Positions 4,227 to 33,346 of a stretch of DNA of 64,000 bases are shown here, one piece after another. The stretch's first letter is position 1. Each line of letters opens with the position of its first letter. Origin of the DNA: Pontibacter mangrovi (lineage in GTDB: Bacteria; Bacteroidota; Bacteroidia; Cytophagales; Hymenobacteraceae); the NCBI RefSeq assembly GCF_006385705.1, contig NZ_VFRQ01000007.1, forward strand, positions 248,001 through 312,000, read 5' to 3'. A program made the translations under genes and the position numbers. The notes beneath the pieces were generated by a model. That model was not told where the DNA came from. It did no database searches and saw nothing but the letters and a program-made list of their open reading frames with translations.

Positions 4227-4843
4227 TGAGAACAGTTGTAAACGAGGAGGGCACCTTCGGCTATGTAAGCAGCGGTGCCGGCGCCATTGTAAAGCTTAAC
4301 CTGCCACGTGCCGCCAGCACAGGCACTGCCGGCAAGGGAGCTGAGGCGCCGGGAGCCGTGGCCACCACGCCGGTGGTAAAAGCCAAGAGTGAGGAAGTAG
4401 CGCTGTGGGGCGACGATAACTTTTTCCCGCAAAACGTGATGAAGGACGTGGAGCGCAACGAGGTGCTCTCCGACACCCTGAGCTGGAAAGCCTGCGCCTG
4501 GTACGGTTCCGGTGTGATCTATGGTTATGTGGAGCTGGACGAGCAGGGCAACGAGGTCTTCATCCGGAAACAGGATCCGGAGGTGGAGGCTTTCTTCCGC
4601 CGCTCCAACGTAAACCGCTATGCCCTGGAGGTGCTCACCGACATCTCCTTTTTCGCCAATGCCTTTCCAGAACATATACTTAGTAAGAACCGCTAGAAAG
4701 TAGTGATGCTTACGGCGCAGGATGCCGTGTTCTGCCGCTTCTCCAAGCCCAAGACCGACGGCGTTATTAACTACTGCTACATCAACGCCAACTGGGACAA
4801 CGGAGGCAATACCTCCGACCACACGACTTTGGCTTTTAACTAA
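4226..4843 (+). pseudogene. Phage portal-like protein, N-terminal part with internal stop
   Basis: The frame starts at ATG 4226 (overlapping the previous stop) and reads through a block like the N-terminus of phage portal proteins: WGDDNFFPQNVMKDVERNEV, SWKACAWYGSGVIYGYVE, then DPEVEAFFRRSNVNRY. A TAG at 4694-4696 interrupts it. The same frame continues KVVMLTAQDAVFCRFSKP and ends at a TAA at 4841-4843. CAG to TAG, a single C-to-T change, would explain the interruption. The product is far shorter than usual portals (400 or more residues), so the 3' part is lost as well. Confidence 0.6.
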
Positions 4844-5310: not shown

Positions 5311-5343
5311 TGAAGACAAACTTTAATACCTTAAGCCCAACCA

Positions 5344-8300
5344 ATGGAGCACGTTGCATTCTTTGATCTTGAAGTTAGTAAGCAGCCCAAAACACAAATC
5401 CAAAGCATTGGAGCATGGTTTAGAGGCAGCACACTTCACAGCACATCTGTTCACGATTTTGAGGTGTTTCAGCAGAGTGCACAATTCCTTTGCGGTCATA
5501 ACATCTTAGCACATGACTTACCTGTTCTGAAATCTGCTGGGGCACCTGCACCCATTTTTCAGAAGCGGTTTATCGATACGCTCTACCTTTCACCGCTTTT
5601 CTTCCCAAACCGACCTTACCACCGGCTGATAAAAGATTACCGCCTGGTAAGCAAACATTTTAATAACCCGGTAGAGGATTCTAAGATAGCGGCAGATCTC
5701 CTGCAGGATTGCATCAGTGCTTACTACAATGTGCCGCCGGTGCTAAGAGAGGTTTTAAACAGGCTCCTTCACACAGACACAGCCTTCAGTGCTTTTTTTG
5801 AACTTATAGAAGACACTTGGTTAGGTAATGAAGAGAAACCGCCCGAAGAGCAGATTAGAGCATTCTTCCACAACAGGATCTGTGAGAACACGGACCTGGG
5901 AACGCTCACAGCTCAGTTACCTGCTCCTTTAGCCTATGCTCTGTCTCTGATCAATGCACCAGATCAAGGCTCTATTATCCCCCCCTGGCTGTTACATCGC
6001 TTTCCGGAGATTGTTAATGTGCTGCAACAGCTAAGAGGTACTTCCTGCCAACAACCCTCCTGCCATTATTGCGAAAAGTATCTCTCGCCTATAGCAGGCT
6101 TACAGAAGTATTTTGGCTATGAAGGCTTCAGGAAGTTTACTCCTGAGGAAAAGACGCCGTTGCAGCAACAGGTAGTGGAAGCCGGATTGGAGGGAGAATC
6201 ACTCGTGGCTATTTTCCCGACAGGCGGGGGTAAGTCCCTAACGTTCCAATTGCCTGCCCTCATGAAAGGCGAGGCAAACCGGGGACTAACCGTAGTCATC
6301 TCTCCCCTGCAGGCGCTCATGAAAGACCAGGTGGATGTGCTCCGAAACCGCTTCGATATCACCACTGCCGTGGCTATCAATGGACTGCTTTCTCCGTTGG
6401 AACGTGCCGATGCCATTCAGACGGTGCAGGAGGGTGGTGCTACGCTGCTGTATATTTCTCCTGAGTCACTGCGCTCCAATACCATTTACCGGCTCCTCAA
6501 AGGCAGACAGATCGAACGTTTTGTAATTGATGAGGCGCACTGCTTTTCTTCCTGGGGACAAGACTTCCGGGTTGACTACCTGTATATCGGTCGCTTCTTA
6601 AAGGAACTGGCTGAGGCAAAGAACCTGCAACAACCTATACCTGTCTCCTGCTTTACCGCAACGGCTAAGCCTGAGGTAGTGCAAGACATTGTTAAGTATT
6701 TCAAGGAGCAGACAAACCTAGACCTGAAGCTATACCAAACCAATGCGTCCCGTAAAAACCTTACCTACAATGCCTCAAAAGCTGAGGGTAAGGAAGCCAA
6801 GCTACAGCAGTTAAAAGACCTGTTGCAGGATCTGACGGAACCGGCCATTGTGTATGTGAGCCGAACCAAAACGGCAGAATTCGTTGCCGAAGAGCTTAAA
6901 AAGTCAGGCATTCAAGCAGCGGCTTTTCATGGCAGAATGGAGTCTGATCTGAAGATCAGAATTATGGACAGCTTTATGGCTAGCGACATAAACGTGATTG
7001 TGGCCACCTCCGCTTTCGGGATGGGCGTTGATAAGGAGAATGTTAAGCTGGTCGTGCACTATGACATCTCGGACTCGCTGGAGAACTACCTCCAAGAGGC
7101 TGGTCGTGCCGGCAGAAAACCAGACTTGCAGGCTGACTGCCATTTGCTCTTCGACGAAAACGACCTGAACGACCACTTTGCCCTCTTAAACCAAACCAAG
7201 CTTTCCAAAAAAGAAGTTGGCCAGATATGGAAAGCGGTTAAAGACTTTAAGCGGCTAAAGTTCACGAAATCTGCTTTGGAGCTGGCCAAGCAGGCTGGCT
7301 GGGACACTGACATGATGAACCTGGAAACTCAGGTAAAGGCCGCCATAGCCGCGCTGGAAGATGTAGGCTATCTAAAGCGGCAAATGAACTCGCCCCGGAT
7401 ATTTGCTCAAAGTATCCTGGTGCGCAATGTAGAGGCTGCCAATAAGATCATTCATGCCAACCCAGACAAATTTCCGGGTGATCAACTACAACAGGCTGTT
7501 AGGATTTTTCAGTACCTCATCTCCCGCGAAGACACGATGGTCGACGCACTGTCTGATCATTTGGGTATTGAAAAAGAAGCAGTAGTTAGGATACTGCTTT
7601 ACTTCAAAGAGCTCGGCCTGCTTGGCGATACCAGAGACCTGACAGCGCTCATAAACCCTGCCCGAAGTGAAAAGAACTCAGAACGGTGTTACCAGCGCTA
7701 TGCGAAACTGGAGAAGGCGCTATTGGAGGTATTGTTACCGTCTGAGGATTCACCGGCTGTTTTCCAGGTGCACCTGCGGGACATCAACGAAAAGCTGATC
7801 GACAAAGGGTGTGATGGCAGCTCCATGGAGGCGATCCGGAACCTGCTGCAATTCTGGGAGCACAAGCATTACATCAAGAAAGAGCGGATGGATGCCCATA
7901 CCCTGCTTTACCGCATTGGCTTCCGCACAGGAAAGCAAGAGATAAAAAAGGCCATTCAGGATCGCCTTACCCGGGCAGCAAACGTCGTGCAATGGCTCTG
8001 CCAACAGAATGCAATCGAGATTGCAAACAAGCAAAAGCAGGATGAGGCTGCCCTCGAGTTCTCGATGGTGGAAATGAAAAAGCAGGTGGAGCGCAACAAC
8101 ATCATGCTGCCGAAAGCCGCGCTCACGGAGTATGAGGCTGACTTGCTATACCTGCACATCATTGGCTCCATTAAACTGGAAGGTGGTTTGTTTGTACTCT
8201 ATAACCCGATGACCATTGAGCGGCTCATAGAAGATAACCGTAAGCAGTACACCATTGAAGACTACAGCAAGCTGGAGCGGCACTATGAGAAAAAGGTAGA

Positions 8301-10239
8301 GCAGATCCATATCATAGGTGAGTACGCCAAAAAGCAGCTCCGGAACCACATAGAAGCCCTTAGCTTCGTGGACGACTATTTCCGCCTGGGCTATGAAGCT
8401 TTTGTGCAAAGGCATTTCCGAAATGAAAAAGGTAAACTGAAGCAGCCTACCACAGACAAAAAGTACCGGGAAATTTTTGCGGCGCTCTCTCCAGATCAGA
8501 CACAAGTCATCAAAGACAACAAGAGCCCTCATATATTAGTAGGTGCCGGACCTGGCAGCGGTAAAACACGGGTATTGGTGCACAAGGTGGCCGCTTTACT
8601 GATGATGGAGGATATTAAGCCGGAGCAGTTCCTCATGCTTACTTTCTCCCGGCCGGCCGCTACCGAGTTCAAAGAAAGGCTGCACAAGCTGATCGGAAAA
8701 TCTGCCTATCACATTGACATCTATACCTACCATGGCTTTGCCTTTCAGCTCCTGGGCCGCGTGGGCGATCTGAAAAAATCTGACAATGTGATTAAGCAGG
8801 CTACAGAGGGATTGGCAAACGACGATGTGCCAAGCGACCGGCTAAAGTGTAAGAGTGTGATTGTGGTAGATGAGTACCAGGATATCAGCCAACAGGAGTA
8901 CGACTTCCTGAACAAGATCATCGAGCTGGCCGACGATGTGCGCGTGATTGTGGTAGGAGACGATGATCAGAACATCTATGAGTTCAGAGGTTCTTCTGTG
9001 TCTTTTATGCGGGATTTTGTGCGGGACAAGCAGGCAACAAAATACCTGTTCAGCACCAACTACCGGGCATGCTTTAATCTGGTAGATTTCTCTAACCAGT
9101 TCCTTGCGCTATTCAAGTCCGACAGGTTAAAAGCTGGACTGCCCCTGATGGCCTATAAGCAGACCTTTGGTGCTATTTGCCTGACCCGTTACGTGCCTGG
9201 TTCTGACCTGGTTACTCCTTTGGTGCAGGATGTGGTAAAGCGAAAGCTCACTGGTACTGTAGCCGTGCTGACGCATACCAACGAGGAAGCTTTGCTGGTA
9301 CAAAACCTGTTGCTTCAACATCATATACCTACCCGCCTGATCATGGCGCAGGATGGTTTCTCTTTGCGGCAGTTGCTGGAGCTGAAGTGTTTCAACTGGT
9401 ACATTCGCGATAAAGTCAGCAGCGAGCTTGGCTTTATCTCGAAAGAGGACTGGGAGCAAAGTCGCAACCGGATGGAGCAGGAGTTTGCCGGCTCAACTAA
9501 TTTAAGCCTGAGCTTAGAGGTGATAGCTGAATTTGAGCGAACAAGTGGCGAACGAAAATTTTGGTCAGACTGGCTGGCTTATGTACAGGAGGCACGTGCC
9601 GAGGATTTTATTTACCCGGAGGCGAATAAGGTATTGGTTTCTACCATGCACAAGGCCAAAGGAAAGGAGTTTGACCATGTCTTTTTAATACTAAAAAATT
9701 ACAAGCTGGAGAAAGAGTCGAATAAGCGTGTCGTGTATGTGGCCATTACCCGAGCCAGGCAATCCCTGCATATTCATACCGACCAGTCTTACTTTGACCA
9801 GATAAAAGTTGATCAGCTGGCGAGAGCCGAAGACCATACCCTATACCCGGCGCCAAAAGAGCTGCAACTGGAAACGAGCATGAAAGATGTGAAACTAGGT
9901 TTTTACAAGCAGCCGCATACTAAAGAAGTAGTCAAACAACTTAAGGCTGGTACTTCTCTAGAGCTGCCAAGAGATTCCGCAGATGGTTTGTTGTTCTCAG
10001 CTGCCCCTGTCGTAGCCTTCTCTCAGAAGTTCAAACAAGAGCTCGCGAAATTAATTACGCAGGGTTATACCTTGCAAAGTGCCGAAATAGCGCATGTTGT
10101 AGTTTGGTATTGTGAGGATGATGGGAAAGAATATCGGGTAGTTTTGCCGAGGCTCTTTCTTACGAGACAAATTAACAGGTCTAATCTAGACACATACGAT
10201 ATAGAAATTTCTTCCCTTACTAGTTGCGAATATGAATAA
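5344..10239 (+). CDS. DEDD exonuclease-RecQ helicase-UvrD/PcrA helicase fusion (1631 aa)
   Basis: Three enzymes are fused. Residues 1-125 look like a DnaQ-type 3'-5' exonuclease: D8-x-E10 in FFDLEV, GHNILAHD near 51-58, and D118 in EDSKIAADLL, without the usual His before that Asp. A RecQ-type SF2 helicase follows, with Walker A TGGGKS (K297), DEAH at 396-399, the RecQ loop CFSSWGQDFR, and QEAGRAGR near 585. A UvrD-type SF1 helicase closes the protein: Walker A GAGPGSGKT (K1074), DEYQD from 1176, GDDDQNIYEFRG, STMHKAKGKEFDHV near 1436 and a VAITRAR motif. Such multi-helicase fusions are expected to unwind and degrade DNA. The location in an island full of restriction systems suggests anti-phage defense, which is an inference. 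The stop overlaps the next gene. Confidence 0.85.
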   Translation: MEHVAFFDLEVSKQPKTQIQSIGAWFRGSTLHSTSVHDFEVFQQSAQFLCGHNILAHDLPVLKSAGAPAPIFQKRFIDTLYLSPLFFPNRPYHRLIKDYRLVSKHFNNPVEDSKIAADLLQDCISAYYNVPPVLREVLNRLLHTDTAFSAFFELIEDTWLGNEEKPPEEQIRAFFHNRICENTDLGTLTAQLPAPLAYALSLINAPDQGSIIPPWLLHRFPEIVNVLQQLRGTSCQQPSCHYCEKYLSPIAGLQKYFGYEGFRKFTPEEKTPLQQQVVEAGLEGESLVAIFPTGGGKSLTFQLPALMKGEANRGLTVVISPLQALMKDQVDVLRNRFDITTAVAINGLLSPLERADAIQTVQEGGATLLYISPESLRSNTIYRLLKGRQIERFVIDEAHCFSSWGQDFRVDYLYIGRFLKELAEAKNLQQPIPVSCFTATAKPEVVQDIVKYFKEQTNLDLKLYQTNASRKNLTYNASKAEGKEAKLQQLKDLLQDLTEPAIVYVSRTKTAEFVAEELKKSGIQAAAFHGRMESDLKIRIMDSFMASDINVIVATSAFGMGVDKENVKLVVHYDISDSLENYLQEAGRAGRKPDLQADCHLLFDENDLNDHFALLNQTKLSKKEVGQIWKAVKDFKRLKFTKSALELAKQAGWDTDMMNLETQVKAAIAALEDVGYLKRQMNSPRIFAQSILVRNVEAANKIIHANPDKFPGDQLQQAVRIFQYLISREDTMVDALSDHLGIEKEAVVRILLYFKELGLLGDTRDLTALINPARSEKNSERCYQRYAKLEKALLEVLLPSEDSPAVFQVHLRDINEKLIDKGCDGSSMEAIRNLLQFWEHKHYIKKERMDAHTLLYRIGFRTGKQEIKKAIQDRLTRAANVVQWLCQQNAIEIANKQKQDEAALEFSMVEMKKQVERNNIMLPKAALTEYEADLLYLHIIGSIKLEGGLFVLYNPMTIERLIEDNRKQYTIEDYSKLERHYEKKVEQIHIIGEYAKKQLRNHIEALSFVDDYFRLGYEAFVQRHFRNEKGKLKQPTTDKKYREIFAALSPDQTQVIKDNKSPHILVGAGPGSGKTRVLVHKVAALLMMEDIKPEQFLMLTFSRPAATEFKERLHKLIGKSAYHIDIYTYHGFAFQLLGRVGDLKKSDNVIKQATEGLANDDVPSDRLKCKSVIVVDEYQDISQQEYDFLNKIIELADDVRVIVVGDDDQNIYEFRGSSVSFMRDFVRDKQATKYLFSTNYRACFNLVDFSNQFLALFKSDRLKAGLPLMAYKQTFGAICLTRYVPGSDLVTPLVQDVVKRKLTGTVAVLTHTNEEALLVQNLLLQHHIPTRLIMAQDGFSLRQLLELKCFNWYIRDKVSSELGFISKEDWEQSRNRMEQEFAGSTNLSLSLEVIAEFERTSGERKFWSDWLAYVQEARAEDFIYPEANKVLVSTMHKAKGKEFDHVFLILKNYKLEKESNKRVVYVAITRARQSLHIHTDQSYFDQIKVDQLARAEDHTLYPAPKELQLETSMKDVKLGFYKQPHTKEVVKQLKAGTSLELPRDSADGLLFSAAPVVAFSQKFKQELAKLITQGYTLQSAEIAHVVVWYCEDDGKEYRVVLPRLFLTRQINRSNLDTYDIEISSLTSCEYE

Positions 10240-10993
10240 AGAAGAGGCTTATATTATTCTGGATGCATTGGCCGAAGGATGCTCCCCTTTCACCGGTGAA
10301 CTTTTAGAGAATGACTCTATATTGAACGAGCGCAAAGTTATTAGAGCCCTACAGGTGGCACTTGATGCACTAAATGTGAGGCCTATTCCGAATCAGCAGC
10401 TTAGCCCTAAATCGGCAACTCTAGTAGATGTGCAAAATGTGATGGCTGTGATAGGAGTTATGAAAGCTGCTAGTTTGGTGCCCACTGTAAGTAAATTAAC
10501 AAAATATCTATTGGGCAGCAAACAGTTCAAAAACAATGAGATTACACAGCATGAACTTTATGGCTCACTAAGACATGAGTTTACTTACACATCCTTAAAA
10601 CCAATTATAGCGCAATTGGCAAAAGATAATCATGATATTTCAGCGGCTCTGGTTGTTGCCCCCAAAGCAAAACCGTGGGATGATGTTGATTATTTTGAGC
10701 AACCGACATTTTGTACACTCTCGGACAAGGGAATTAATCAATTAAAAGAAAAAATCACTGAATTAGGGATACAAAAGCATCCCCCACTCCTTTCAGACTA
10801 TATCATCCAGGCACGAACTATTTATGCAAGAGCATATGAACCTTGGTCAGCAAAAGAGTTGGAGTTTTTAAATAAGGCTTTAAAATACACGAATGATTTG
10901 CAGCTACTTTCATCATGCTTCCAGCGAGGTGAAAACTCACTTAGAGGAGTAGGTAAACGATTAATATATGAGGGCAAAGTAAATAAGGCGTAG
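10232..10993 (+). CDS. Small partner of the helicase fusion
   Basis: This 253-residue protein starts (ATG 10232) inside the last codons of the helicase fusion gene, so the two are translationally coupled. Its N-terminus (AYIILDALAEGCSPFTGELLENDSILN...VIRALQVALDAL) has the 'G.dP.TGE.L..dS.l....ViRAL' pattern I associate with short helicase-linked proteins. The C-terminus (YEPWSAKELEFL...LLSSCFQRGENSLRGVGKRL) looks like a SANT/Myb-like or sigma-like DNA-binding helix-turn-helix unit. A role as DNA-targeting subunit is inferred from this layout. The gene end is markedly AT-rich compared with the helicase. Confidence 0.6.
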   Translation: MNKEEAYIILDALAEGCSPFTGELLENDSILNERKVIRALQVALDALNVRPIPNQQLSPKSATLVDVQNVMAVIGVMKAASLVPTVSKLTKYLLGSKQFKNNEITQHELYGSLRHEFTYTSLKPIIAQLAKDNHDISAALVVAPKAKPWDDVDYFEQPTFCTLSDKGINQLKEKITELGIQKHPPLLSDYIIQARTIYARAYEPWSAKELEFLNKALKYTNDLQLLSSCFQRGENSLRGVGKRLIYEGKVNKA

Positions 10994-11142
10994 TTTGAGT
11001 TAATGAGTAGTTGAGATTGAGGCGGCTAATTGTAGTTAGAAAGATCAGCCATCGGGAAAGAACTAAATTCAATAAACTACTTCTTAAGAGCCCTCTAATA
11101 AATAAAATTCATTGTTCCATATACCAGCCCCGCTACTAGCTC

Positions 11143-14113: not shown

Positions 14114-14174
14114 TACCTAAAGGTAGGCACAAAAGTGCGCTTATCCTACTCAAAAGGCTGTTTTTGCCGCTTTT

Positions 14175-14938: not shown

Positions 14939-16078
14939 TTACGATACATGAATACTGGGCTTAGATTGTGCGCTAGTTTTGCTAATTCTCAAACATTCTT
15001 CATAAAAAGCTTTCTTAAGAAAGTTCAGCTCTACTAAAGGGTACTCATTACATTCATCAACTAATTCTTTAGCCCATTCATCGTAGGTTAAGTCTTTATT
15101 TTGCTTAATTCTCGCATTATGAATTCCACTACTAAATTTATCGTACCACTTTTGGCCTGAGAACTGCCCCAAAAGCTTTGCCTTATATCTTTCTTCAATA
15201 CCGAAAGTTTCCATCCAACTTTTTACTTCATCCTCTCTTTTGCTACAGGTCGCTTTTATTGATATCTCACTGTTTTTAAGCTTTTTAGAAAAAGGCTTTG
15301 TTAATGAAATCTCTAGTCCAATTTGCCATTTGCTTTTAGAATAAGGGTAAAAAGCCTTTCGCCTTACAGCTGCTACACGTTTACTAGACTTTGTTAATAT
15401 TATTATTCTTTCATGTTTATAAGTTGAATTACACTCATCACACATGATTGCTAGATTCTGAAAGTTAATTGAGCTGAATGGGTACTTTCCTTTAGGGATT
15501 AGATGATCATATGCTTCAAGTTTGGAATGGTCATTACCCTTTATTGGATTCATGCCACAGAATGGGCATAAGCCTTCATGACCGCCAAAATTAATATTAA
15601 AGAACTCCTTGTAATGGCTCTTTTTAATTTTATTAAAATCTCCGAAATCCTTTAAAAGGAAAGGAGAATTATTACCATAGAGTCTTTTATAAAATTTTTT
15701 AAGCTCTATAGATAAAGATGGATATAAAAGATCTAATGTTTTGTAAGAAATTGGCAGCTTATTAGTGTTTACAAATAAGCTATGTATATTATTATTTAAT
15801 TTATACCAATGCCGTAACTGCTTTTTCTGAGCTTTACTAAGCTTTAAAAATTCGGCATAAATTTTTTCAATACTAAGATTAAACTGATATCCCCATTTTT
15901 CAGGATCCGTTAAATAATCAAAAGATTCATATATGTCTTTTAAATCCTGGCAACGGTCCAACTTCGTGCTATCAAATGGAGTCCTAGCTCTTGACCAAAC
16001 TTTTAAGAAAAGGAAATTAGAGTACCTTTGAAATTTTAGTATCTCATGATTATGAACATACTTATATGTAAATAGCAT
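14939..16078 (-). CDS. HNH nuclease, last gene of the restriction operon (PtuB-like)
   Basis: This 379-residue protein has a zinc-ribbon HNH motif in its middle: C171-x2-C174 (CPFCGMNP), D191-H192 (YDHLIPKGKYPF), N207 (INFQNLAIM), C213-x2-C216-N217 (CDECNSTYKH). The first 160 residues are helical. Its ATG (16076-16078) overlaps the stop of the AAA ATPase gene. A AAA ATPase plus HNH pair is the Septu (PtuA-PtuB) layout, in which the HNH protein cuts nucleic acid when the ATPase senses infection. Assigning Septu-like function is inference. The protein is longer than most PtuB proteins. Confidence 0.75.
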   Translation of the reverse strand: MLFTYKYVHNHEILKFQRYSNFLFLKVWSRARTPFDSTKLDRCQDLKDIYESFDYLTDPEKWGYQFNLSIEKIYAEFLKLSKAQKKQLRHWYKLNNNIHSLFVNTNKLPISYKTLDLLYPSLSIELKKFYKRLYGNNSPFLLKDFGDFNKIKKSHYKEFFNINFGGHEGLCPFCGMNPIKGNDHSKLEAYDHLIPKGKYPFSSINFQNLAIMCDECNSTYKHERIIILTKSSKRVAAVRRKAFYPYSKSKWQIGLEISLTKPFSKKLKNSEISIKATCSKREDEVKSWMETFGIEERYKAKLLGQFSGQKWYDKFSSGIHNARIKQNKDLTYDEWAKELVDECNEYPLVELNFLKKAFYEECLRISKTSAQSKPSIHVS

Positions 16079-17901
16079 CAGTTCTTTTCTCTCTTATCTA
16101 TTAATTGGTTAATTAGGATAGTGCGTTCAACAGAGTCTCCGAGTGTTGTAAAAATTTCCTCTTTCAACCCTTCTAGATCCTCTCCATTTGCAATCCTCTT
16201 CTCGAACTCAATTACTTTTTCATTAGCCAAATCGCCAATTGTATCAACTCTATTAAATAACTCAATAGTGATTAAATTTACTGAAGCTCCAAATGTGTTA
16301 AAGTTAGGTCTCTCTACTGTAGCAACTTTAGTGTGTTCATTCTTTTTGAATAATAAAACATTTTCTTGATGGCAATCAGATACAATGAATGGAGAGTGAG
16401 AGGTAATAAGTAACTCACAAACATTTGTTTTGTTAGGCTGTGCCAAGCAATCTCTTAAGGTGGAAATAAACTTCGCTCGCCAATCTGGATTAAAATGTGT
16501 TTCAGGTTCATCTAAGAGGAAGAGAGAATTTGTATTTCTAAAAAGTAAACAGATACCCAATGCGTGTAAGTACTGATGCTCTCCATCTGATAATGATTTG
16601 CTCAATATATGCTCGCTTGTACCTTCCTTTTCAATAGTAAAATCTTTGAAACGCATGATACGTTTCTCAGATGCTAGTACAGGAACAGTCTCATTAACAT
16701 AAAGACTACTAGAAAGGTATAGATCTTCTTTAGTTTTTCGATCTACATCATAAAGATTAAGCGTTAACAGAGTTTGAAAAGCTCTAAAAAGCTCAAATGG
16801 ATCTTCATTAAAATGGGCTTGGAAAGCCTTCTTCATCTCACTATGACCGATCAATTCACCCAAGTCATTTTTAAGAATTTCTCCTCTTGAGTCACGTTTG
16901 TCAAGGTCGATAAAGTAATCAAGATAAAGTGTTTTGGTTGTAGCATCAAAGAACTGACTAGTTGCGCAACTAATCAATTTATCTATGACCTTATAATCTT
17001 TTGAAGTCTCATCTTTACGTTTTAGCTGTTCAGTCAATTCATAAAAGTCATTATACTGGTCTCCTAATGATTGTTCTTCAACTAAATTGCTTTCTTCAAA
17101 GCGATATTTTGGAATACTCTGGTTTTGATTGATAATTATTCTAAACTGCCTAATTGCTTTTATTCCTATAGCATCATAAATAGGTTTAAGTATCTTTTCA
17201 TCCTGCATCAGGTAGTTAGTAAGAAAAACAGCTTGGCTATGTTGATTATCTAAATAGGTAAGCCGCCCTTCTGGTTGGGCGTAACCTGTCTCGTTTCTTA
17301 ATGCATCCTCATATTCATCATATTGAATGAATCGCATTTTGAAAAAAGGAAGGCTTAGTATTTCATTTTCACCTGATGAATACGCAATTATGAACTGAGG
17401 TAAAAGTGCTTTTATAGTACTTCGTCCAGGAGGATTTTGAGCGCCAGGCTCATATAGATGTCTATTCACCCACTCAAAATTAGGTGACATGCCCACGACT
17501 TTGGTGATCTTAACATGTACCATGGCAGTAGTAGGCAAAGTACTACCAAAATATTTAGAGTTTTTTAAAGTGATATCACTTGTTAAAGGAATTAGATATT
17601 CAAGCTCAAAAGCGTCAGGTGTGCATTTCTCAGGAAAGAATCCATCTGTATGAAGTCCATTAAAGTTACCCTCTCCTTCAAAGCCCTCAGGTTTATAATC
17701 AAGATAGATGCATTCGATATGATAGAAGATAGCTGCTAAAGCTTCAAGTATGTTAGATTTGCCACTACCGTTTCTGCCTACTAGACAGTATGGCATAAAA
17801 TCCTTCATTACTGCTTGGTCATCATAACGAAGAAAGTTTACTTCAAAACCTGCCTGCAGGCTTCTGAAATTGGTATTCAGTTTAAGCCTCAGCAGTTTCA
17901 T
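16078..17901 (-). CDS. Restriction-associated AAA/SMC-like ATPase (PtuA-like)
   Basis: This is a 607-residue ABC/SMC-type ATPase (OLD/RloA/PtuA clan). Walker A is GRNGSGKS at 42-49. The signature-like KSLSDGEHQYLHALG lies near residue 430, Walker B is LFLLDEPETHFNP near 460, and the H-loop is LLITSHSPFIVSD near 490. No TOPRIM domain is visible after the ATPase. It overlaps hsdS upstream (20 bp) and the HNH gene downstream, so it belongs to the type I restriction operon. A named family of 'restriction system-associated AAA ATPases' exists and this fits it by location. It probably acts with the HNH protein, not with HsdR. Confidence 0.8.
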   Translation of the reverse strand: MKLLRLKLNTNFRSLQAGFEVNFLRYDDQAVMKDFMPYCLVGRNGSGKSNILEALAAIFYHIECIYLDYKPEGFEGEGNFNGLHTDGFFPEKCTPDAFELEYLIPLTSDITLKNSKYFGSTLPTTAMVHVKITKVVGMSPNFEWVNRHLYEPGAQNPPGRSTIKALLPQFIIAYSSGENEILSLPFFKMRFIQYDEYEDALRNETGYAQPEGRLTYLDNQHSQAVFLTNYLMQDEKILKPIYDAIGIKAIRQFRIIINQNQSIPKYRFEESNLVEEQSLGDQYNDFYELTEQLKRKDETSKDYKVIDKLISCATSQFFDATTKTLYLDYFIDLDKRDSRGEILKNDLGELIGHSEMKKAFQAHFNEDPFELFRAFQTLLTLNLYDVDRKTKEDLYLSSSLYVNETVPVLASEKRIMRFKDFTIEKEGTSEHILSKSLSDGEHQYLHALGICLLFRNTNSLFLLDEPETHFNPDWRAKFISTLRDCLAQPNKTNVCELLITSHSPFIVSDCHQENVLLFKKNEHTKVATVERPNFNTFGASVNLITIELFNRVDTIGDLANEKVIEFEKRIANGEDLEGLKEEIFTTLGDSVERTILINQLIDKREKN

Positions 17902-19477
17902 TTACTATCAATTCCATTTTTTTAGTAGATGCATTAAATTGCTGGCGGATAAAAGCATCTTTTTCTGCCAGCCATTTGAAGACCATATTTGACACCTTAT
18001 CATAACTCGGTATTGTCTCAAAAGGGAAACTAGTAATTTCCTCCCAAAGCTGATCAAAAGTAAAAGGCTCCTTAAACTTACCTTTTACTAAACGATACTT
18101 CACATACTCTTCCCAAAAAGGGATCTCTCCTCTTATTTTAAGCTCGACTTCTAGTTTCCCGATTTTATTTTCAATTTCTTTAGGGGCTCCTATTGCCCCC
18201 TGAAGTTTATGAAAATCTGCTAAGCTTTTATTTTTTTTATCAATGGCTATGTCTGTACTGCTTCTTTTAGATTCATTATTGGCTGTGCTTTCAATTGAAT
18301 CCCTTTTAATGACTTCCAAATCTCCTCTAAGAGCTTTTGTGCTAAGAGAGTCAGATAACTCAATTAGAACTCTTCTATTATTTTTGTAAAGACTTTTTAA
18401 TTTGTCAATTTTCTCTCCAATCTGTTCAAATTCATACTGTAGTTTTTGATCAGGAACAATCATCTGTATTCTACCAACAATGTTCAGATTTAAATTTTCC
18501 TGATTACCACCTCGTGCCAATGAACGAAGATGTGAATACGAATTTTTCAGGGCATGAAATAGAAAAAATTGGTTTATATTATTAGAAGGCAATATAGCAG
18601 CGCAAGCTTGATTTGTTGCAGAACTAATTTTTAAAATTCCTACATTACCACGTGTTTTGCCTTGCCCATACATGGCTAGCAAAACAGTATTTTCTGGATA
18701 TACTTTACAGTTTGAATCTTTTATTGCTAATTCAGTTATTTTTTCTTGAGTATCATATATATATGAACCATCAACTTCAGTTGTTTTTGCCCAAGGAATT
18801 AATCCATTATAGTAGTCCAGTTCTCTTTTTCTGCTAGGCGTTCCTCCAGTACCTACCTTTGTTATTTTATTGATAGGCTTCTGAGGCCACCCCTTCTCAT
18901 TTCTAACAGGATCACCGAACATCTCTAGAAATTTCATTCTTAAGAATTCATCAATCAGATCAATACTTTTTTCTCGCTTTTTTATAAGATACTGGGCTCT
19001 TTCTAAAACGTCAGCGATTCTTTCTTGATCAACCAAGGACGTTGGAACATGAAGCTTAAAAAGAGATAAATCATTCTTATTAAAACCAGCCTGAGCAGCC
19101 CTTGCGCCAATATTTAAAATAAAATGTTGAAAATTTTTACCACTTAAAACATAGTATAAAAAGCGCTTAGAAAGGAGCTTTTCATTTGGAATAGTCTTTA
19201 TGATTGCAACATTATAAGCACCAGCTAATCCAGTTAAGATTTTCCCTACAGAGGCTCCATAACGACCAATTAATATATCATTCTTGTTACATTTATTAAG
19301 CTTCTTAGTATCCTTTACATATGCAATATGCTCTTCTTTCCCTTGAGTAAAGTCTCGAATTTGGAGCATACGCACGAAACCTTCTCTTGGCTCATCTATC
19401 CACTCTTCCTTTGGCGGTTGTGTTCCACCCTGAAAGTCACATATATCTGTTAAACGGTATTCTTTAGTTTCCATCAT
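17882..19477 (-). CDS. hsdS: Type I restriction specificity subunit HsdS with C-terminal extension
   Basis: This 531-residue protein has two target-recognition domains. The first spans about 5-150 (YRLTDICDFQGGTQPP ... IGRYGASVGKI) and the second about 195-370 (ITKVGTGGTPSRKRELDYYNG ... LLAMYGQGKTRGNVG). Each is followed by a conserved helix (DVLERAQYLIKKREKSIDLI; EQIGEKIDKLKSLYKNNR). It sets the DNA sequence recognised by HsdM and HsdR. About 130 extra residues after position 400 form an unusual tail (Lys/Ser linker, then GEIPFWEEYVKYRLVKGKF...). It overlaps hsdM by an ATGA-type junction and the ATPase gene by 20 bp. Usual S subunits are near 400 residues, so the tail is notable. Confidence 0.9.
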   Translation of the reverse strand: MMETKEYRLTDICDFQGGTQPPKEEWIDEPREGFVRMLQIRDFTQGKEEHIAYVKDTKKLNKCNKNDILIGRYGASVGKILTGLAGAYNVAIIKTIPNEKLLSKRFLYYVLSGKNFQHFILNIGARAAQAGFNKNDLSLFKLHVPTSLVDQERIADVLERAQYLIKKREKSIDLIDEFLRMKFLEMFGDPVRNEKGWPQKPINKITKVGTGGTPSRKRELDYYNGLIPWAKTTEVDGSYIYDTQEKITELAIKDSNCKVYPENTVLLAMYGQGKTRGNVGILKISSATNQACAAILPSNNINQFFLFHALKNSYSHLRSLARGGNQENLNLNIVGRIQMIVPDQKLQYEFEQIGEKIDKLKSLYKNNRRVLIELSDSLSTKALRGDLEVIKRDSIESTANNESKRSSTDIAIDKKNKSLADFHKLQGAIGAPKEIENKIGKLEVELKIRGEIPFWEEYVKYRLVKGKFKEPFTFDQLWEEITSFPFETIPSYDKVSNMVFKWLAEKDAFIRQQFNASTKKMELIVNETAEA

Positions 19478-21150
19478 ACAATCATGTCTTTCAAAGCTTT
19501 CAACTCAACCTGAATATTTTCTTCTAGTTTCTCAAGTTCTTCAAAGATCAAGACTGGCTCTATATAATTAATTTCGTCAAATACTTGATCACGGTATTTG
19601 CTCATACTTAAGTCGAAATTATTTTCTTCAATTTCCTTTTTGGGAACAAAGAAGTATTGTGCTGTTCTGTCAGTGTCAGTTTCAGGATTACGCTTTCTGT
19701 ATTTTGCAACAATATCCTGTAAATCACCATAATCCCTTACTCCACCATTTTTAAATTTCTCAGTACGTCTATCATTAAGTTCGTAACCGTCATCCTTCAT
19801 TTCGTAGAACCAAGTGTTCTCTGTTACACCTCCCTTGGTAAATATGAGTATAGATGTACTAACACCTGCATATGGTTTAAATACACCACTTGGCATCGTA
19901 ATTACGGCATTCAAATCCGCTTCTTTAACTAACTTTTCTCGAAGTTGTACAAAGGCTTTACCTGCACCAAAAAGTACTCCTTGAGGTACAATAATAGCAG
20001 CCACACCACCCATTTTTAGCATGGTATAAATACGCTCAACAAAAAGCAATTCAGTTTTTGTGGTCTGAAGTTTTAAGCTTTCATTTATATCGCCTTTATC
20101 AATACTACCCGTAAATGGAGGATTCGCCAAGACAATATCAAACTGTGCCTCCTCATTATAAGATTTGCTAAGGGTGTCTTTATAATTAATATGCGGATTA
20201 TCAATACCATGCATCATCAAGTTCATTAGACCTAGACGAACCATGGTAATATCTATATCATAGCCATAAAAGCTATCTTCCAGAATCTTCTTTACATCTT
20301 CTGTTAAAACAGCAGACAAAGTTCCTCTCTCAAACCCATCATTATCCTTAACCAACTTAGAAGGGTCTTTTTGACGTACTAAATTGGTTAAAACATATTG
20401 ATATGCTCCTAATAAAAAGCCCCCCGTACCACAAGCTGGATCTGCTACTCGTTTTCCCAGTTTAGGCTCTACTAAATCAGCTATAAGCTTAATAATATGT
20501 CTTGGGGTTCTGAATTGACCATTTTTACCTGCAGTAGCAATCTCACTAAGCAACATTTCATAAACATCACCTTGAATATCCTGGAAAGAATGGCCTCCTT
20601 CATTAGCGTCTTTCTCTATCTCAAGAAAAATCTCTTCAATTTTCTTTATAGCCTCAACTAATAAAGATGGCTTTTCGATAATGAACACAGCATTAGCCAT
20701 GTGCTGTGTAAATGGGGAAACGCTACCATTCAGTAATTTCAGGAAAGGAAAAACGTTATACCTGATATGTTCCAGCATTTTATCAGCTGGCATATATTTA
20801 AAAAAGCTCCAACGTAATTCTTCCTTAGATCTAGGTTTTTTAGCTTCTTCTAAAGCTTCTCTTAACTGATCAACTTCATGTTCCCAGAATGTTCCTGCTT
20901 TCTTTTTGTCAAATTCAAATTTAGTCTCATCAACATAAGGTATATATGTTCCACTAAAACGTGACTCATAGGCCTCTCCTGTCCATTCAGCATCACGAAT
21001 TCTTTTGGAATCCATATCATCTAATCGCTTCATGAAAAGCAAATAGGTAATTTGCTCTATCGCCGTCAAAGGATTACTGATACCCCCGCTCCAAAATGTA
21101 TTCCAAAGACTGTTTATGTGTGATTTAAGTGTAGCGTTATTCTGTAACAT
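19474..21150 (-). CDS. hsdM: Type I DNA methyltransferase HsdM
   Basis: This is a 558-residue N6-adenine methyltransferase subunit. It has the SAM-binding motif DPACGTGGFLLGA near 237 and the catalytic NPPF near 341 (LANPPFTGSIDKGD). The N-terminal helical HsdM_N domain is present (LWNTFWSGGISNPLTAIEQITYLLFMKRL). It methylates host DNA at sites set by HsdS and forms the core of the restriction complex. Start and stop overlap hsdR and hsdS, so the genes are translated together. No lesions are seen. Confidence 0.95.
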   Translation of the reverse strand: MLQNNATLKSHINSLWNTFWSGGISNPLTAIEQITYLLFMKRLDDMDSKRIRDAEWTGEAYESRFSGTYIPYVDETKFEFDKKKAGTFWEHEVDQLREALEEAKKPRSKEELRWSFFKYMPADKMLEHIRYNVFPFLKLLNGSVSPFTQHMANAVFIIEKPSLLVEAIKKIEEIFLEIEKDANEGGHSFQDIQGDVYEMLLSEIATAGKNGQFRTPRHIIKLIADLVEPKLGKRVADPACGTGGFLLGAYQYVLTNLVRQKDPSKLVKDNDGFERGTLSAVLTEDVKKILEDSFYGYDIDITMVRLGLMNLMMHGIDNPHINYKDTLSKSYNEEAQFDIVLANPPFTGSIDKGDINESLKLQTTKTELLFVERIYTMLKMGGVAAIIVPQGVLFGAGKAFVQLREKLVKEADLNAVITMPSGVFKPYAGVSTSILIFTKGGVTENTWFYEMKDDGYELNDRRTEKFKNGGVRDYGDLQDIVAKYRKRNPETDTDRTAQYFFVPKKEIEENNFDLSMSKYRDQVFDEINYIEPVLIFEELEKLEENIQVELKALKDMIV

Positions 21151-23948
21151 TATGCTGCTAAAAGTTTATGCGTTATATTAAGTATTTCATCAATTTCATT
21201 TGGATTGAAAATCCCTCTGATACCTTCAGGATGAATCATAGTGAAAGGTGCTTCAATTAGATTGCGTTTTTGCAGTTCACCTCTTTCAATGATATAGTTT
21301 TTGAGCAAGTCCAAAAATTGGAGTTGCCGACTACTTAAATAGCTGTGTGTAGTAATAAAATCAGTAAATACTTTAGCAACTGTTTCAGGAAAAGATTCCA
21401 GAATTTCAATTCCCAAAATGTGCTTAATAAACTGCACTAGTTGAGCTTTTCGATGATTATACACTCTCCTCAAAAGGTCAACAGTAATATTTGGATGTTC
21501 TTCGTAAAGCTCTACTGCTAATTGCTGAGCTTCTTCTTCAGTAATTTGATCACCACTTCTAATCTTAATCAAAAGCGGGTTAATTTCTTTGAGCTCATTA
21601 ATTTTTTCTTCAACTAACTCTTTGTATCGGCTAATACTAACGGATTCATGCTGTGGACCAAATTCAATATATTCTTTCTGTGTGATAATATCCTGTAGGT
21701 TAAACCTTGCCATTCCTAGCGGAGCTACAGTTGATTCAATGTATCGCATCAGAGGAGCAAGCCTTTCAATTAGGATATCATACTTCTGCTCATCATTTGC
21801 CGCCCAATATTGATTCGTTTGAGCTATCCGGATTAGGTCGGCTTCTTTAGCTACAATGTTAATGGAAGTAGGTAGCTCGGCTATTATTTCAACTATACTA
21901 TCTTTTAATGTCTCAAACTTGTCAGTTTCCTGACTTAGACGAGCCAAGGATACTTCTACAATATCCTTTTCAAAACGCATAGCTTTAAAATCCTTGTCAG
22001 AAATTGTTCTTAAAAGGGGCTTCACAACCGTTCTTAAAAAAACAATTTTATCACCACCTAAGTTATTCCAAAAGTTATCATCTTCTAGCCGCTGCAAATC
22101 ACTTTTGGCATCCATTATCACAACAGAGTTTTGTGGTAGCTCTGCAATTTGCTTTCTTAGCTTGGTTATTTCTTTTTTAGAAATTTCAGATTCATTTAGT
22201 TCAATTGCCTTTTCAATCTTATCAAGCCGTAAACCAAAGAGCTTTACCGGAAGTGGAATCTGAGGCTTCAACTCTTTCCCTTTTGGATTTAATTTGAAGT
22301 ACTCAAAGTTATCCCAACAATCCATAATGAGGAAAGCATCCTTCTCTGTACACCAAGGTTTTATTTTGGAGGGCTCTAATAAACGAGTGCCACGTCCGAT
22401 CATCTGCCAAAACTTTGTGTATGAAAAAACAGGTTTGGCAAAAACGAGATTGACTATTTCTCTGACATCTATACCAGTGTCCAGCATGTCAACACTTATA
22501 GCGACTCTAGGCATATTATTGTGAGTGAATTGGTCAAGCAAGCCGCCCTTTCCATAAGCCCTGGGATCATCAGAAACGATGACTTTGGCTAATTCACCTT
22601 TATATTCTGGATAAAGGTTGTCAAAGATTTGCTCAATTTCTCTAGCATGCTTCTTCCCAACACAAAAGAAGATTGTTTTACCAGGAAGTACCCCGTTAGG
22701 ATCCTTAATACAATCTTCCATGAAGGTTTTTACAATAAGGGCATTAGTCCCTCTATTGCTAACTGTTTTCTCTAATTCAGTTCCTTCATAATTAATCTCT
22801 TCAATTTCTTTTCCTTCTAGTATTAACTTCTTTTGGTCCTCTAAAGAAATAGTTCGCTTATTAATCCCTTCATCTTGGAATTTTGTTTTGATTTTCATTA
22901 CCTGGAAATTACACAGGTAAGGAGGAATATTATTTACAGCTTCTTCGTATGAATAGGCATAGGTTGGCACCCCATCCTCACACTCAAAAAGCTCAAATGT
23001 ATTATGATCAATAACATCCGTTGGGGTGGCTGTTAATCCTAGTGTGATAGTATTAAAGTAGTTTAGAATTTCTTGATATGTGTTGTAGATGCTTCTATGG
23101 CTCTCGTCTACCACAACTAAATCAAAAAAGTGAGGAGACAGAGTATTTTCTTTATCACGAATGATGTTCAACATGGTTGGGTATGTTGAGACATAAATTC
23201 GCCTGTCTCTCGCTATAGATTTCTCTCCAACTTTAGGCCACGTTGGTTCATTTGGTAAATGTTCCTTGAATGCATCCAACGTTTGGTCTCGTAATGCAAC
23301 TCTGTCGACAAGAAAGAGTACTTTCTCAGCCCAACCAGCTCTCATCAAAGATTCAACCAAAGAAATACAAGTTCTTGTCTTTCCTGTTCCTGTCGCCATA
23401 ACTAGGAGAAACTTACGCTTCCTTTTTTCAATAGCTTCTAATACCGAACGAATTGCACGTTGTTGATAGTCCCGTCCAGCAATTTTAGTATTGATAAATT
23501 CATTGGCTAAGGCTTTCCTGGATAGGCGAAGATTTTTGTATCGCTGTAAATCATCCTTTGTAGGAAAACCATGTACTTTCCTAGGTGGATAATTTTCTAA
23601 ATCCCAAAAGAAGATTTCATGCCCATTTGTATAAAAACAGAAAGGCAAGTCACTTCCATGCTGATTCTTAATGTTATAGCAATATTGTTTAGCCTGCTCT
23701 CGCCCAATAGCTGCATCAACTGATGTTTTTTTAGCCTCAACTACTGCGAGTGGTTTGCCATTTTTTCCTAAAAGGACGTAGTCACTGAATTGATGTCCAT
23801 TGTAAGGTGTCAAAGGTTCATTAACCTCATGTGGTAAACCAACATTTATATCATACTCAAGAATAACCTGGGTATAGTCATTGACATTCCAGCCGGCTTG
23901 TTTTAAGCGTTTGTCAATTATTTCTTTTCTGGTTTTTGCCTCATTCAT
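21150..23948 (-). CDS. hsdR: Type I restriction endonuclease/translocase HsdR
   Basis: I take the ATG at 23946-23948 as the start (932 residues) over an in-frame GTG nine bases upstream. The N-terminal nuclease shows D56 and E71-A-K73 (SDYVLLG ... AVVEAKK), the PD-(D/E)XK site. An SF2 translocase follows with Walker A MATGTGKTRTC near 185, a DESHRSIYNTY box and the late motif QMIGRGTRL near 490. A helical C-terminal part binds the methyltransferase. It cuts unmethylated DNA after ATP-driven translocation. It is the first large gene of the operon, 95 bp after the small leader gene, and its stop overlaps hsdM. Confidence 0.95.
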   Translation of the reverse strand: MNEAKTRKEIIDKRLKQAGWNVNDYTQVILEYDINVGLPHEVNEPLTPYNGHQFSDYVLLGKNGKPLAVVEAKKTSVDAAIGREQAKQYCYNIKNQHGSDLPFCFYTNGHEIFFWDLENYPPRKVHGFPTKDDLQRYKNLRLSRKALANEFINTKIAGRDYQQRAIRSVLEAIEKRKRKFLLVMATGTGKTRTCISLVESLMRAGWAEKVLFLVDRVALRDQTLDAFKEHLPNEPTWPKVGEKSIARDRRIYVSTYPTMLNIIRDKENTLSPHFFDLVVVDESHRSIYNTYQEILNYFNTITLGLTATPTDVIDHNTFELFECEDGVPTYAYSYEEAVNNIPPYLCNFQVMKIKTKFQDEGINKRTISLEDQKKLILEGKEIEEINYEGTELEKTVSNRGTNALIVKTFMEDCIKDPNGVLPGKTIFFCVGKKHAREIEQIFDNLYPEYKGELAKVIVSDDPRAYGKGGLLDQFTHNNMPRVAISVDMLDTGIDVREIVNLVFAKPVFSYTKFWQMIGRGTRLLEPSKIKPWCTEKDAFLIMDCWDNFEYFKLNPKGKELKPQIPLPVKLFGLRLDKIEKAIELNESEISKKEITKLRKQIAELPQNSVVIMDAKSDLQRLEDDNFWNNLGGDKIVFLRTVVKPLLRTISDKDFKAMRFEKDIVEVSLARLSQETDKFETLKDSIVEIIAELPTSINIVAKEADLIRIAQTNQYWAANDEQKYDILIERLAPLMRYIESTVAPLGMARFNLQDIITQKEYIEFGPQHESVSISRYKELVEEKINELKEINPLLIKIRSGDQITEEEAQQLAVELYEEHPNITVDLLRRVYNHRKAQLVQFIKHILGIEILESFPETVAKVFTDFITTHSYLSSRQLQFLDLLKNYIIERGELQKRNLIEAPFTMIHPEGIRGIFNPNEIDEILNITHKLLAA

Positions 23949-24043
23949 AAAAAGCACACCTAAAGTATTAAGATCGTTCTTGAGTTATCATTAAATCTTA
24001 AGAGAAGCTATCTCTGGTAATGGCTTAACTTTCTTTTCTTTGA

Positions 24044-28523: not shown

Positions 28524-29891
28524 TTACCTATCGCAGATTATTAGCGATTTTCTGATACTGCTAATTAAATCATCTTTAACAGCGTCAAATAAAAGTGACA
28601 GTGCAACGTCTTTTCTATCTTCGTGGAAAGAAAGATTTTCAGTAATAATAGGTAGCTGAAAAGCCTTTACTTTTATTCTCCTCCCTCCCGCTAATTCATC
28701 CACAATTAGTAGTTCTGCTACCTTCTCCTGGTAACCTTCAATGGTTTTTGGATAGAAGAGTATGACCTCATCAACATTGAAACGCACGGCGTAGGCTAGC
28801 ATCTGGTACAGGTCCGCCTGCAATACTCCCTTCTTGGGGTCCTTTTCGTCTGAGTAGACAATCTTGTACTTGGTGTCCGCAATGACGCTCCTGTCGCCAA
28901 TCTGCAGCAGCAGGTCCGGGCGAAGTGCGAATGCCTGCCCATGGTCCAGGTACTGCGACGTCACCTGCGCCTTGGCCTGCACCTCTTTCACTTCTTTTTC
29001 GATAAAGCCGAAGACGAAATCCTCGAAGACGTATTCCATGGGCAGCAGGAAGGCAAACAGCTTCAGGTCGTTCTTGTAGCTAAAGGACACGCTGCTGCTC
29101 AGAAAGAGATAGCAGTAATCGCGCACCGTTTCAAACTCACTGAACATGGGGTTGAACTTGAGGCAGGCGCATTCCTCGGCCGTGGCCCTCACCTCGCTCA
29201 CCTCATCGAGGATAAAGAGGATCTCGCGCAGGTATTTTTTGTTCTCTGAGCTTGTGGTGACGGTGAAGAGCAGGCTTGTTACGTACTTGATGATGCGGTT
29301 GAACCTGTTGTCCACCACAAAGGCATCGTACGTACAGCTGAGCCTGTGCCAACGGCCCCTAGAGATATTCTCGTTAACGTAGGCATTGGTATCTAATCGT
29401 CCTTTGATATAGGGCAGCTCCCGGCTCACCTCCTCGTACTGCTGGTAAATGGAGCTTGATAGCAGCTCCCGGGTGTACTTAGAGAACAGGTAGATCAGCA
29501 CCTCAAAGAAGTCGCTCTTCAGGCTGCCCAAGGCGGTCTGGTAGCTGGGGAATTTGATTTTGCGGCAGTAGCTGAGCCACCAGAGGATATGCTGCTGCAT
29601 GCCCTGCACCTCACCCTCCGAAGGCTCAACGCCTGGACGGTAGAAGATCTTGGGCAAGAGGTTAACGCGCCGGCCCCCAAAGTGGATCACACCCACGTAC
29701 TTGTTGGACTTGATCTCCCTGGTCCTGTGCAGGAACTGGATAAACTGCTGCACCTCTACCCTGTCCGAATCGCCGTTCAGGTAAAAGTCCGACTTGTCCC
29801 GTTTCTTCCACACCTCATCCAGGAAATCCTCCAGCCCCTCTAGCTCGCATGGAAGCTCGGCCTTGTTCTGGTACTCAAAGAGGTTAATCAC
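28524..29891 (-). CDS. mcrC: McrC nuclease subunit
   Basis: This is a 455-residue protein of the 5-methylcytosine restriction partner family. The N-terminal half binds McrB. The C-terminal half has a PD-(D/E)XK nuclease: ALRPDLLLQIG near 320, then VIADTKYKIVYSD near 340, with D and D-x-K as catalytic residues. It also has the typical QADLYQMLAYAVRFNVDEVILFYP block. It probably starts at a GTG (29889-29891), overlapping the end of mcrB by 8 bp, the usual coupling for this pair. It cleaves modified DNA together with McrB. Its 3' side runs up to the IS256 element. Confidence 0.92.
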   Translation of the reverse strand: MINLFEYQNKAELPCELEGLEDFLDEVWKKRDKSDFYLNGDSDRVEVQQFIQFLHRTREIKSNKYVGVIHFGGRRVNLLPKIFYRPGVEPSEGEVQGMQQHILWWLSYCRKIKFPSYQTALGSLKSDFFEVLIYLFSKYTRELLSSSIYQQYEEVSRELPYIKGRLDTNAYVNENISRGRWHRLSCTYDAFVVDNRFNRIIKYVTSLLFTVTTSSENKKYLREILFILDEVSEVRATAEECACLKFNPMFSEFETVRDYCYLFLSSSVSFSYKNDLKLFAFLLPMEYVFEDFVFGFIEKEVKEVQAKAQVTSQYLDHGQAFALRPDLLLQIGDRSVIADTKYKIVYSDEKDPKKGVLQADLYQMLAYAVRFNVDEVILFYPKTIEGYQEKVAELLIVDELAGGRRIKVKAFQLPIITENLSFHEDRKDVALSLLFDAVKDDLISSIRKSLIICDR

Positions 29892-33192: not shown

Positions 33193-33202
33193 GATTTTCA
33201 AG

Positions 33203-33276: not shown

Positions 33277-33346
33277 AGCGTTTGTAGGCAAGTATACACT
33301 TTACCCGTAAACAAAAAATTTCGGAATCTCTTCCGAAATTTTTAAG

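Follow-up and report, generated by a model that had tools for sequence, protein, structure and literature searches.

In the window analysed here, a stretch of 64,000 nucleotides from Pontibacter mangrovi (contig NZ_VFRQ01000007.1, positions 248,001 to 312,000), a gene for a 1631-residue protein joining a predicted DEDD-type exonuclease, a RecQ helicase and a UvrD-type helicase is followed by the gene for a 253-residue partner protein, and this pair forms a unit found at three or more chromosomal sites in four related genomes. Restriction genes are located near the pair in three of these four genomes, and in two other bacteria the helicase gene lies directly upstream of HsdR-HsdM or McrB-McrC, while the partner is found among restriction genes in three of five unlinked cases and, in a further genome, its C-terminal module forms the end of a helicase-PLD protein. 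Our reading, to which we give an even chance of being right, is that the pair represents a mobile accessory DNA-processing machine of restriction-dominated defence islands, equipped with an adaptor protein. It is based on domain content, conserved motif residues, purifying selection, the occurrence of the unit at different sites and the repeated linkage with restriction genes.

Both open reading frames (ORFs) are exactly as described in an earlier note made from the letters of this DNA alone: the fusion gene has intact RecQ and UvrD cores behind an exonuclease-like N-terminus, and its stop codon is overlapped by the start of the partner ORF, by 8 bases (5344-10239 and 10232-10993, Table 1). 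Across six genome pairs the ratio of non-synonymous to synonymous substitution rates (dN/dS) was 0.04-0.10 for the helicase, with dS near saturation in the three pairs that include genome G035, and 0.09-0.18 for the partner, and both genes are under purifying selection. The ORF upstream of the pair (4112-4822) gave no match in a Pfam scan, the only search made with it. The 494-residue ORF downstream (11143-12627), which has only a sub-cut-off amidohydrolase match, was ruled out as a member of the unit because the shared DNA ends by position 11056 and blastp finds no counterpart in the nine other stretches compared.

We compared the genome of the window (G000) with other genomes of the genus (G015, G022, G025 and G035). 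Helicase and partner show 83-94% identity among G000, G015, G022 and G035, and the gene overlap is kept in three of these genomes, with a 43-base gap in the fourth. Continuous DNA homology to the window stops at the edges of the pair in all three blastn comparisons (5340-11056 for G022, 5339-11022 for G015 and 5344-11014 for G035), and the immediate flanking genes are unrelated; beyond the pair, the compared 34 kb of the window shares the McrBC region with G015 and G035 and, with G022, a gene at 27086-28473. The window is part of contig C33 of G000, while the left flank of G015 is syntenic with contig C30 and that of G022 with contig C1 of the same genome. The right-hand flanks of the window and of G035 are syntenic (281-292 kb of G000 contig C33 versus 529-540 kb of G035 contig C1), and these two genomes therefore share one island beside a tRNA cluster. 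To the left of this cluster the island has the pair and then McrBC in the same order and orientation, with different content between them, and no common left flank was found in the stretches compared. One fixed insertion site is ruled out, as G015 and G022 carry the pair elsewhere than in this island. In G025 the two genes are unlinked, with the helicase on contig C45 and the partner on contig C33 of that genome. The tRNA cluster itself (Arg-Pro-Ser, window 33202-33624) is followed by VWA and TPR genes (33942-35830), and a 1.8-kb stretch at the cluster is matched, at least in part, in all 50 genus genomes searched; at approximately 529-540 kb of G035 contig C1 the same stretch ends the island with the same order of pair and McrBC. 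The tRNA-cluster site is a possible defence hot spot.

With regard to the surroundings, the pair in the window is followed by the 494-residue gene, an IS66 element, a type I restriction-modification (RM) operon including a TIGR04435 ATPase and an HNH-like gene, and finally McrC and McrB. The order differs in G035, where the pair precedes McrC-McrB, then type I RM genes, which were recognised because they resemble other Hsd genes, and then McrC-McrB once more. In G015 one unknown gene comes first after the pair, then genes for a PLD protein, an AAA ATPase, a type IIG-like protein and a PLD-helicase, and last McrC-McrB. Restriction genes (type I or IIG, McrBC) thus start less than 4 kb from the pair in G000, G015 and G035, and the distal McrC and McrB proteins of G015 and G035 are 71-76% identical to those of the window, at distances from the partner of 10.8 kb (G015), 11.8 kb (G035) and 17.5 kb (window). 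The restriction systems seen by the earlier note are real on the right-hand side. The phage debris it named is not borne out on the left, since only one of the five left-hand ORFs scanned had PHROG matches, and these were mostly to helix-turn-helix (HTH) regulators.

Outside the genus, HsdR and then HsdM follow the helicase after 133 bases on the same strand in Desertivirga (locus L019; L numbers denote loci of relatives), while in Flavobacteria bacterium BBFL7 (L041) McrB and then McrC, encoded on the helicase strand, follow after 3 bases, and HsdM and HsdS lie upstream of the helicase. On the Allochromatium plasmid pALVIN01 a relative matching query residues 7-1263 is separated by one hypothetical gene from HsdS-HsdM-HsdR-HNH, and on a Thiothrix plasmid a cas6 gene starts approximately 4 kb downstream of the helicase. 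Among ten annotated plasmid loci, for which the gene table was incomplete, the stretch covered included restriction or CRISPR genes in two and genes of toxin-antitoxin type (HipA, VapC, RES/BrnT) in four. The linkage with restriction genes is strong in Pontibacter, but outside this one genus it is anecdotal.

The two helicase cores are well defined. Pfam domains were located at residues 271-448 (DEAD), 486-591 (Helicase_C), from 1049 (UvrD-helicase) and at 1426-1479 (UvrD_C), and the protein belongs to the RecQ family by TIGR00614 (280.8 bits, cut-off 219.8) and to the superfamily 1 (SF1) helicases by PF00580 (117.5 bits, cut-off 23), with motifs I-VI located. In 34 aligned relatives K297, D396-H399, R588, R591, K1074, E1177, Q1179, G1205, D1206, D1208, Q1209, R1241 and R1470 are invariant, and D1176 is kept in 33, so that the motifs of both helicases are indeed intact, as had been proposed. 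The protein is not a core RecQ equivalog (TIGR01389, 301.1 bits, cut-off 640.2), and the NCBIfam models for core RecQ, PcrA, UvrD, recB and DpdF all score far below their cut-offs.

For the N-terminal domain the four acidic residues of the DEDD superfamily are present in order, with D8, E10, D58 and D112 invariant in all 52 aligned relatives from several phyla, as are D78, H93 and C180. Position 107 is asparagine in 49 of these relatives and serine in three, while position 108 is never tyrosine, and neither the DEDDh (H-x4-D) nor the DEDDy (Y-x3-D) pattern is present; this is therefore a DEDD-type domain with neither the usual histidine nor the usual tyrosine, and the asparagine in motif III (window 5662-5664) points to a possible exonuclease subclass. 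Residues 1-250 of the window protein matched no Pfam model, and DNA_pol_B_exo1 was matched by 4 of the 52 relatives (best E-value 5.4e-4). A profile search of the PDB gave seven weak matches (E-values 0.094-0.31), headed by DnaQ and including one chain named DEDDh, as well as the unrelated Ceg4, and a weak profile alignment to a plasmid 3'-5' exonuclease (probability 13%, E-value 0.0021) spans motifs II and III, with N107 facing its histidine. The AlphaFold2 model of this region scored 90.2 for predicted local distance difference test (pLDDT) and 0.87 for predicted template modelling (pTM), and its order of strands and helices agrees with an RNase-H-like fold; C180, C235, C240 and C243 may bind zinc. 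We consider the domain a predicted DEDD-type exonuclease: the acidic residues, the weak matches to DnaQ and the polymerase B exonuclease and the model speak for this earlier assignment, while the asparagine in place of the histidine speaks against it.

The partner has 59 database relatives. Its AlphaFold2 model (pLDDT 83.4, pTM 0.50) has helices at 207-217, 223-230 and 234-246, and model and motif together bear out the suggestion of a SANT/HTH-like C-terminus as a three-helix unit, for which no Pfam match was above cut-off. The four matches of its profile in the PDB were all at chance level, PADLOC gave no match, and none was found in IMG/VR by a pattern scan. It is matched in 5 of 341 genomes of the order, four of which also carry the helicase (including G245, with a partial C-terminal match), and in 3 of 395 genomes of the phylum, namely that of the window, G563 and G726. 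In G726 a protein of 1150 amino acids (L185:5745-9197) combines an SF1 helicase (AAA_11/AAA_12), a PLD domain and, at its C-terminus, a tail homologous to the SANT-like module of the partner, and such a fusion would be in keeping with the partner acting as an adaptor. Of the five stand-alone copies that are not linked to the helicase, three are in restriction settings: those of G025, G262 and G245 lie among Hsd or McrBC genes, while the other two, L184 (G563) and L186 (a Persicobacter plasmid), have neighbours that matched none of the restriction queries. In G262 HsdR, HsdM, HsdS and the partner are consecutive; in G245 the partial copy is flanked by HsdM-like and HsdR-like genes; and in G025 the partner lies between an HsdS gene and genes similar to McrB and McrC of the window, with neither HsdM nor HsdR seen in this neighbourhood. 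The copies L184 and L186 do not match the N-terminal motif of the partner. This motif is shared by a small gene directly adjoining the helicase in L030, L031 and the viral contig L094 (Table 1): the L030 and L031 proteins matched the motif profile at E-values of 0.0012 and 0.24, and a profile comparison spanning 46 columns gave a probability of 46.8% and an E-value of 2e-4. The L031 protein has 11 database matches, itself included, and the L094 protein ends in a tail which appears SANT-like by eye, with Pfam HTH matches below cut-off.

The fusion protein gave at least 8000 candidates in database searches, all at E-values of 0.001 or lower, many of which may share one helicase only; among the matches listed, 117 of 120 extend over 92% or more of its length. 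The highest-ranking matches with a name (80-86% identity) are from Pontibacter and Rufibacter and carry the NCBI name 'RecQ family ATP-dependent DNA helicase', and near-full-length relatives were also found in Clostridia, a Spirochaetes metagenome-assembled genome (MAG), several proteobacteria and a Verrucomicrobia MAG. Plasmid relatives come from Bacteroides, Phocaeicola, Aliarcobacter, Sulfitobacter, Thiothrix, Cereibacter and the cyanobacteria Nostoc and Calothrix, with 10 of 494 matching plasmid records covering at least 80% of the fusion, and IMG/VR contigs contain nine copies spanning at least 1400 query residues. A phage origin was ruled out, as none of 88 matching phage records reaches 80% coverage. 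Among 37 genomes of the genus, 5 carry the helicase, as do 20 of 341 in the order, and the partner is present in exactly the same five genus genomes, once unlinked (hypergeometric probability 2.3e-6, with relatedness ignored). The earlier note had taken homologues that are conserved in single-copy core regions and never near defence genes, or that lack the partner, as evidence against a defence system; on this measure the outcome is mixed, as these counts make the family accessory but most distant homologues are without the partner. The partner is not a universal companion, since by profile search the full protein adjoins the helicase only in the window (L001), L009, L010 and L011, and a common third gene was likewise rejected, as no family reached more than four loci when 936 neighbouring ORFs were clustered.

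The family is already in the databases, and its named members are mostly called simply RecQ-type helicases. The NCBI family of that name (approximately 1600 amino acids, TIGR00614) contains the same proteins, namely full-length relatives from Pontibacter, Rufibacter, Flavilitoribacter and elsewhere with an equal set of Pfam domains, but the name covers the middle part only and omits the exonuclease, the UvrD helicase and the partner. Our search of the open-access literature, covering titles and the starts of abstracts, with subscription literature and preprints outside it, found no paper describing the fusion or the pair. The Werner protein WRN has a DEDD exonuclease and a RecQ helicase in one chain, without a UvrD motor and with RQC and HRDC domains after the RecQ core. 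The RecQ core of the window matches WRN chains at E-values of 4e-40 and weaker, with only this part aligned, and unlike WRN the fusion has no RQC or HRDC Pfam match at an E-value of 0.1 or lower. With RecBCD, AddAB and AdnAB the likeness would lie in the action of two motors and a nuclease on DNA ends; unlike these enzymes the fusion is a single chain, with superfamily 2 (SF2) and SF1 motors and a DEDD-type instead of a RecB-type nuclease (no PDDEXK Pfam match; recB 46.5 bits, cut-off 696), so that of the 'RecBCD-like' label given earlier a functional analogy is the most that may stand. DpdF of the Dpd system is the best PADLOC match (1.7e-92 over the RecQ part), but the NCBI DpdF model scores 233.6 bits against a cut-off of 550. 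GajB, the UvrD-like defence helicase of Gabija, is matched at 2.9e-44 over the UvrD part, but differs from this 1631-residue fusion with its coupled partner; no GajA nuclease was seen beside the fusion, as PADLOC matched neither the partner nor the gene that follows it, and the upstream ORF has no Pfam match. The helicase of Druantia type III is DruE. One article presents Druantia type III (DruH-DruE) as a two-component anti-phage system (PMC13316683), and the likeness of our pair would be an analogy of mode only.

Table 1. Coordinates of the gene pair, its domains, its relatives' small neighbours and the surrounding restriction genes
Feature	Position	Strand	Evidence or remarks
Exonuclease-RecQ-UvrD fusion protein, 1631 amino acids	5344..10239	+	Intact ORF; named relatives 80-86% identical in Pontibacter and Rufibacter
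DEDD-type exonuclease-like domain (predicted), residues ~1-250	5344..6147	+	D8-x-E10, N53..D58, D78, H93, N107-x4-D112; cysteines C180, C235, C240, C243
RecQ SF2 helicase core, residues ~252-627	6097..7224	+	GGGKS 294, DEAH 396, QEAGRAGR 584; Pfam, TIGR00614, conservation
UvrD-type SF1 helicase core, residues ~1046-1480	8479..9783	+	GPGSGKT 1069, DEYQD 1176, GDDDQN 1205, NYR 1239, HKAKGKEF 1436, AITRAR 1467
Partner, 253 amino acids	10232..10993	+	N-terminal ALAxGxxPxTGE...VIRAL motif; C-terminal SANT-like unit with W205, E209, F230, R232
Two-gene unit, maximum extent of the unbroken DNA homology with three other genomes	5339..11056	+	blastn
Small motif-sharing proteins beside the triple helicase	L094:6849-7595; L030:232-804; L031 ~5600-6175		No known family
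IS66-family transposase and two small ORFs	12605-14788		IS66-like arrangement; between helicase pair and RM operon
Type I RM operon (context, outside the pair)	14939..23957	-	HsdR 21150-23957, HsdM 19474-21150, HsdS 17882-19477
HNH-like protein, in type I RM operon	14939-16078	-	Weak PtuB/PDC-M01B matches
AAA ATPase TIGR04435, in type I RM operon	16078-17901	-	664 bits, cut-off 300; 'restriction system-associated AAA family ATPase'
McrC and McrB-like AAA ATPase (context)	28524..32520	-	McrC 28524-29891, PF10117 1.3e-70; McrB-like 29884-32520, AAA_5 2.8e-13; far end of restriction island

Within the type I RM operon of the window, the TIGR04435 ATPase and the HNH-like protein make up a Septu-like pair.

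The RecQ and UvrD families move 3'->5', DEDD-family exonucleases trim in the 3'->5' direction, and type I enzymes and McrBC are translocating cutters. In a mobile DNA-processing machine of restriction islands, the partner, with its N-terminal TGE-motif domain and C-terminal SANT-like helices, would be a DNA-binding or docking adaptor which targets or loads the large enzyme, bringing it to DNA ends, for example the ends that type I RM or McrBC leave behind. Its two motors, RecQ and UvrD, would then unwind the DNA, with the polarity predicted from their families, and the N-terminal domain would act as the nuclease and trim single strands 3'->5'. Foreign DNA, once cut, would in this way be destroyed instead of being re-joined or replicated, and rescue of the invader would be prevented. 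Such a link to the products of restriction, and the anti-phage or anti-plasmid effect that may follow, lead to a more specific proposal which we make tentatively and consider rather doubtful: the pair may be an unnamed two-gene defence system, in which a single-chain machine and a transferable SANT-tailed adaptor provide post-restriction clean-up that turns cuts into full destruction of the invader, and which travels with restriction islands.

Several observations weigh against a restriction-linked machine with its own adaptor. Outside Pontibacter, the 21 query proteins from the restriction islands matched 5 of 62 loci versus 0 of 13 recQ-only controls (Fisher p 0.58, the test set being four times larger); L019 and L041 were confirmed by Pfam, L045 is a PLD-ResIII helicase, the match in L025 is 9.3 kb away, and the fifth is L042. 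In the PADLOC screen 162 models came from 147 neighbour genes versus 59 from 144 control genes, with a maximum of two versus one members per model. From these two screens enrichment near defence genes across the whole family is not established, and the neighbourhood survey proposed in the earlier note thus gave repeated restriction linkage in the genus but no clear enrichment family-wide. Within the genus, none of the genes over 11.9 kb upstream and 18.3 kb downstream of the pair in G022 matched restriction genes from the other loci, and no restriction gene was seen adjoining the unlinked G025 helicase (L163). Among 67 full-length loci the partner is adjacent in four, including the window, and a neighbour with a partner-like motif in three (L030, L031 and L094), and only 3 of 13 genomes from clostridial loci have a partner-like protein, in one of them not adjoining the helicase but on other contigs. 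The partner occurs without a helicase match in G262, and its relatives in L184 and L186 lie among genes matching none of the restriction queries. To these may be added the loss of the DEDDh catalytic histidine to asparagine in nearly all relatives (49/52), and the fact that the window genome already encodes a protein with the PDDEXK_1 domain found in AddB and RecB.

The absence of restriction matches from 57 of the 62 loci, and copies among ordinary genes such as L127 in Bacteroides, would fit an accessory enzyme of DNA repair or replication restart, used in the manner of WRN or AddAB, which has spread horizontally and has ended up in islands only because accessory genes in general gather there; next to restriction genes its task would be to mend self-inflicted breaks, not to destroy foreign DNA. 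RecQ, UvrD and DEDD domains are classic repair parts, and we regard this explanation as possible though less than probable, as it sits poorly with the direct linkage to HsdR in L019 and McrB in L041, with the partner homologues among restriction genes in three genomes, and with a distribution in the genus that is patchy, unlike that of core repair genes. The plasmid records (ten with at least 80% coverage) and the nine IMG/VR copies of at least 1400 query residues may instead suggest a maintenance or counter-defence factor that aids the DNA of plasmids or integrative elements themselves, especially as the gene adjoins ParA-ParB on the Aliarcobacter plasmid and lies near SSB and ParA genes on a Bacteroides record; its location in the genus on contigs with chromosomal synteny, beside restriction genes, and the lack of any matching phage record with 80% coverage (0/88) make this improbable in our view.

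It is also conceivable, if unlikely, that helicase and 253-residue protein are not one system, and that the latter is a free-standing accessory, often of restriction loci, which was placed after the helicase in one lineage. This is how one would read the partner homologues without an adjacent helicase in G025, G262, G245, L184 and L186 and the many helicase loci without an adjacent partner, but it is harder to reconcile with the overlap kept in three of four genomes, the continuous homology of the pair at different sites and the presence of both genes in the same 5 of 37 genus genomes, or with the fusion of the C-terminal module to another helicase-nuclease in G726 and the related N-terminal motif adjoining the helicase in L030, L031 and L094.

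If the mobile restriction-island reading is correct, bacteria would acquire a one-chain analogue of RecBCD together with their restriction systems, which would bear on the fate of foreign DNA after the first restriction cut and on the blocking of phage rescue by recombination. In either case, this is a widespread protein of which the database name hides two of its three domains, and a proper annotation would be useful regardless of its function.

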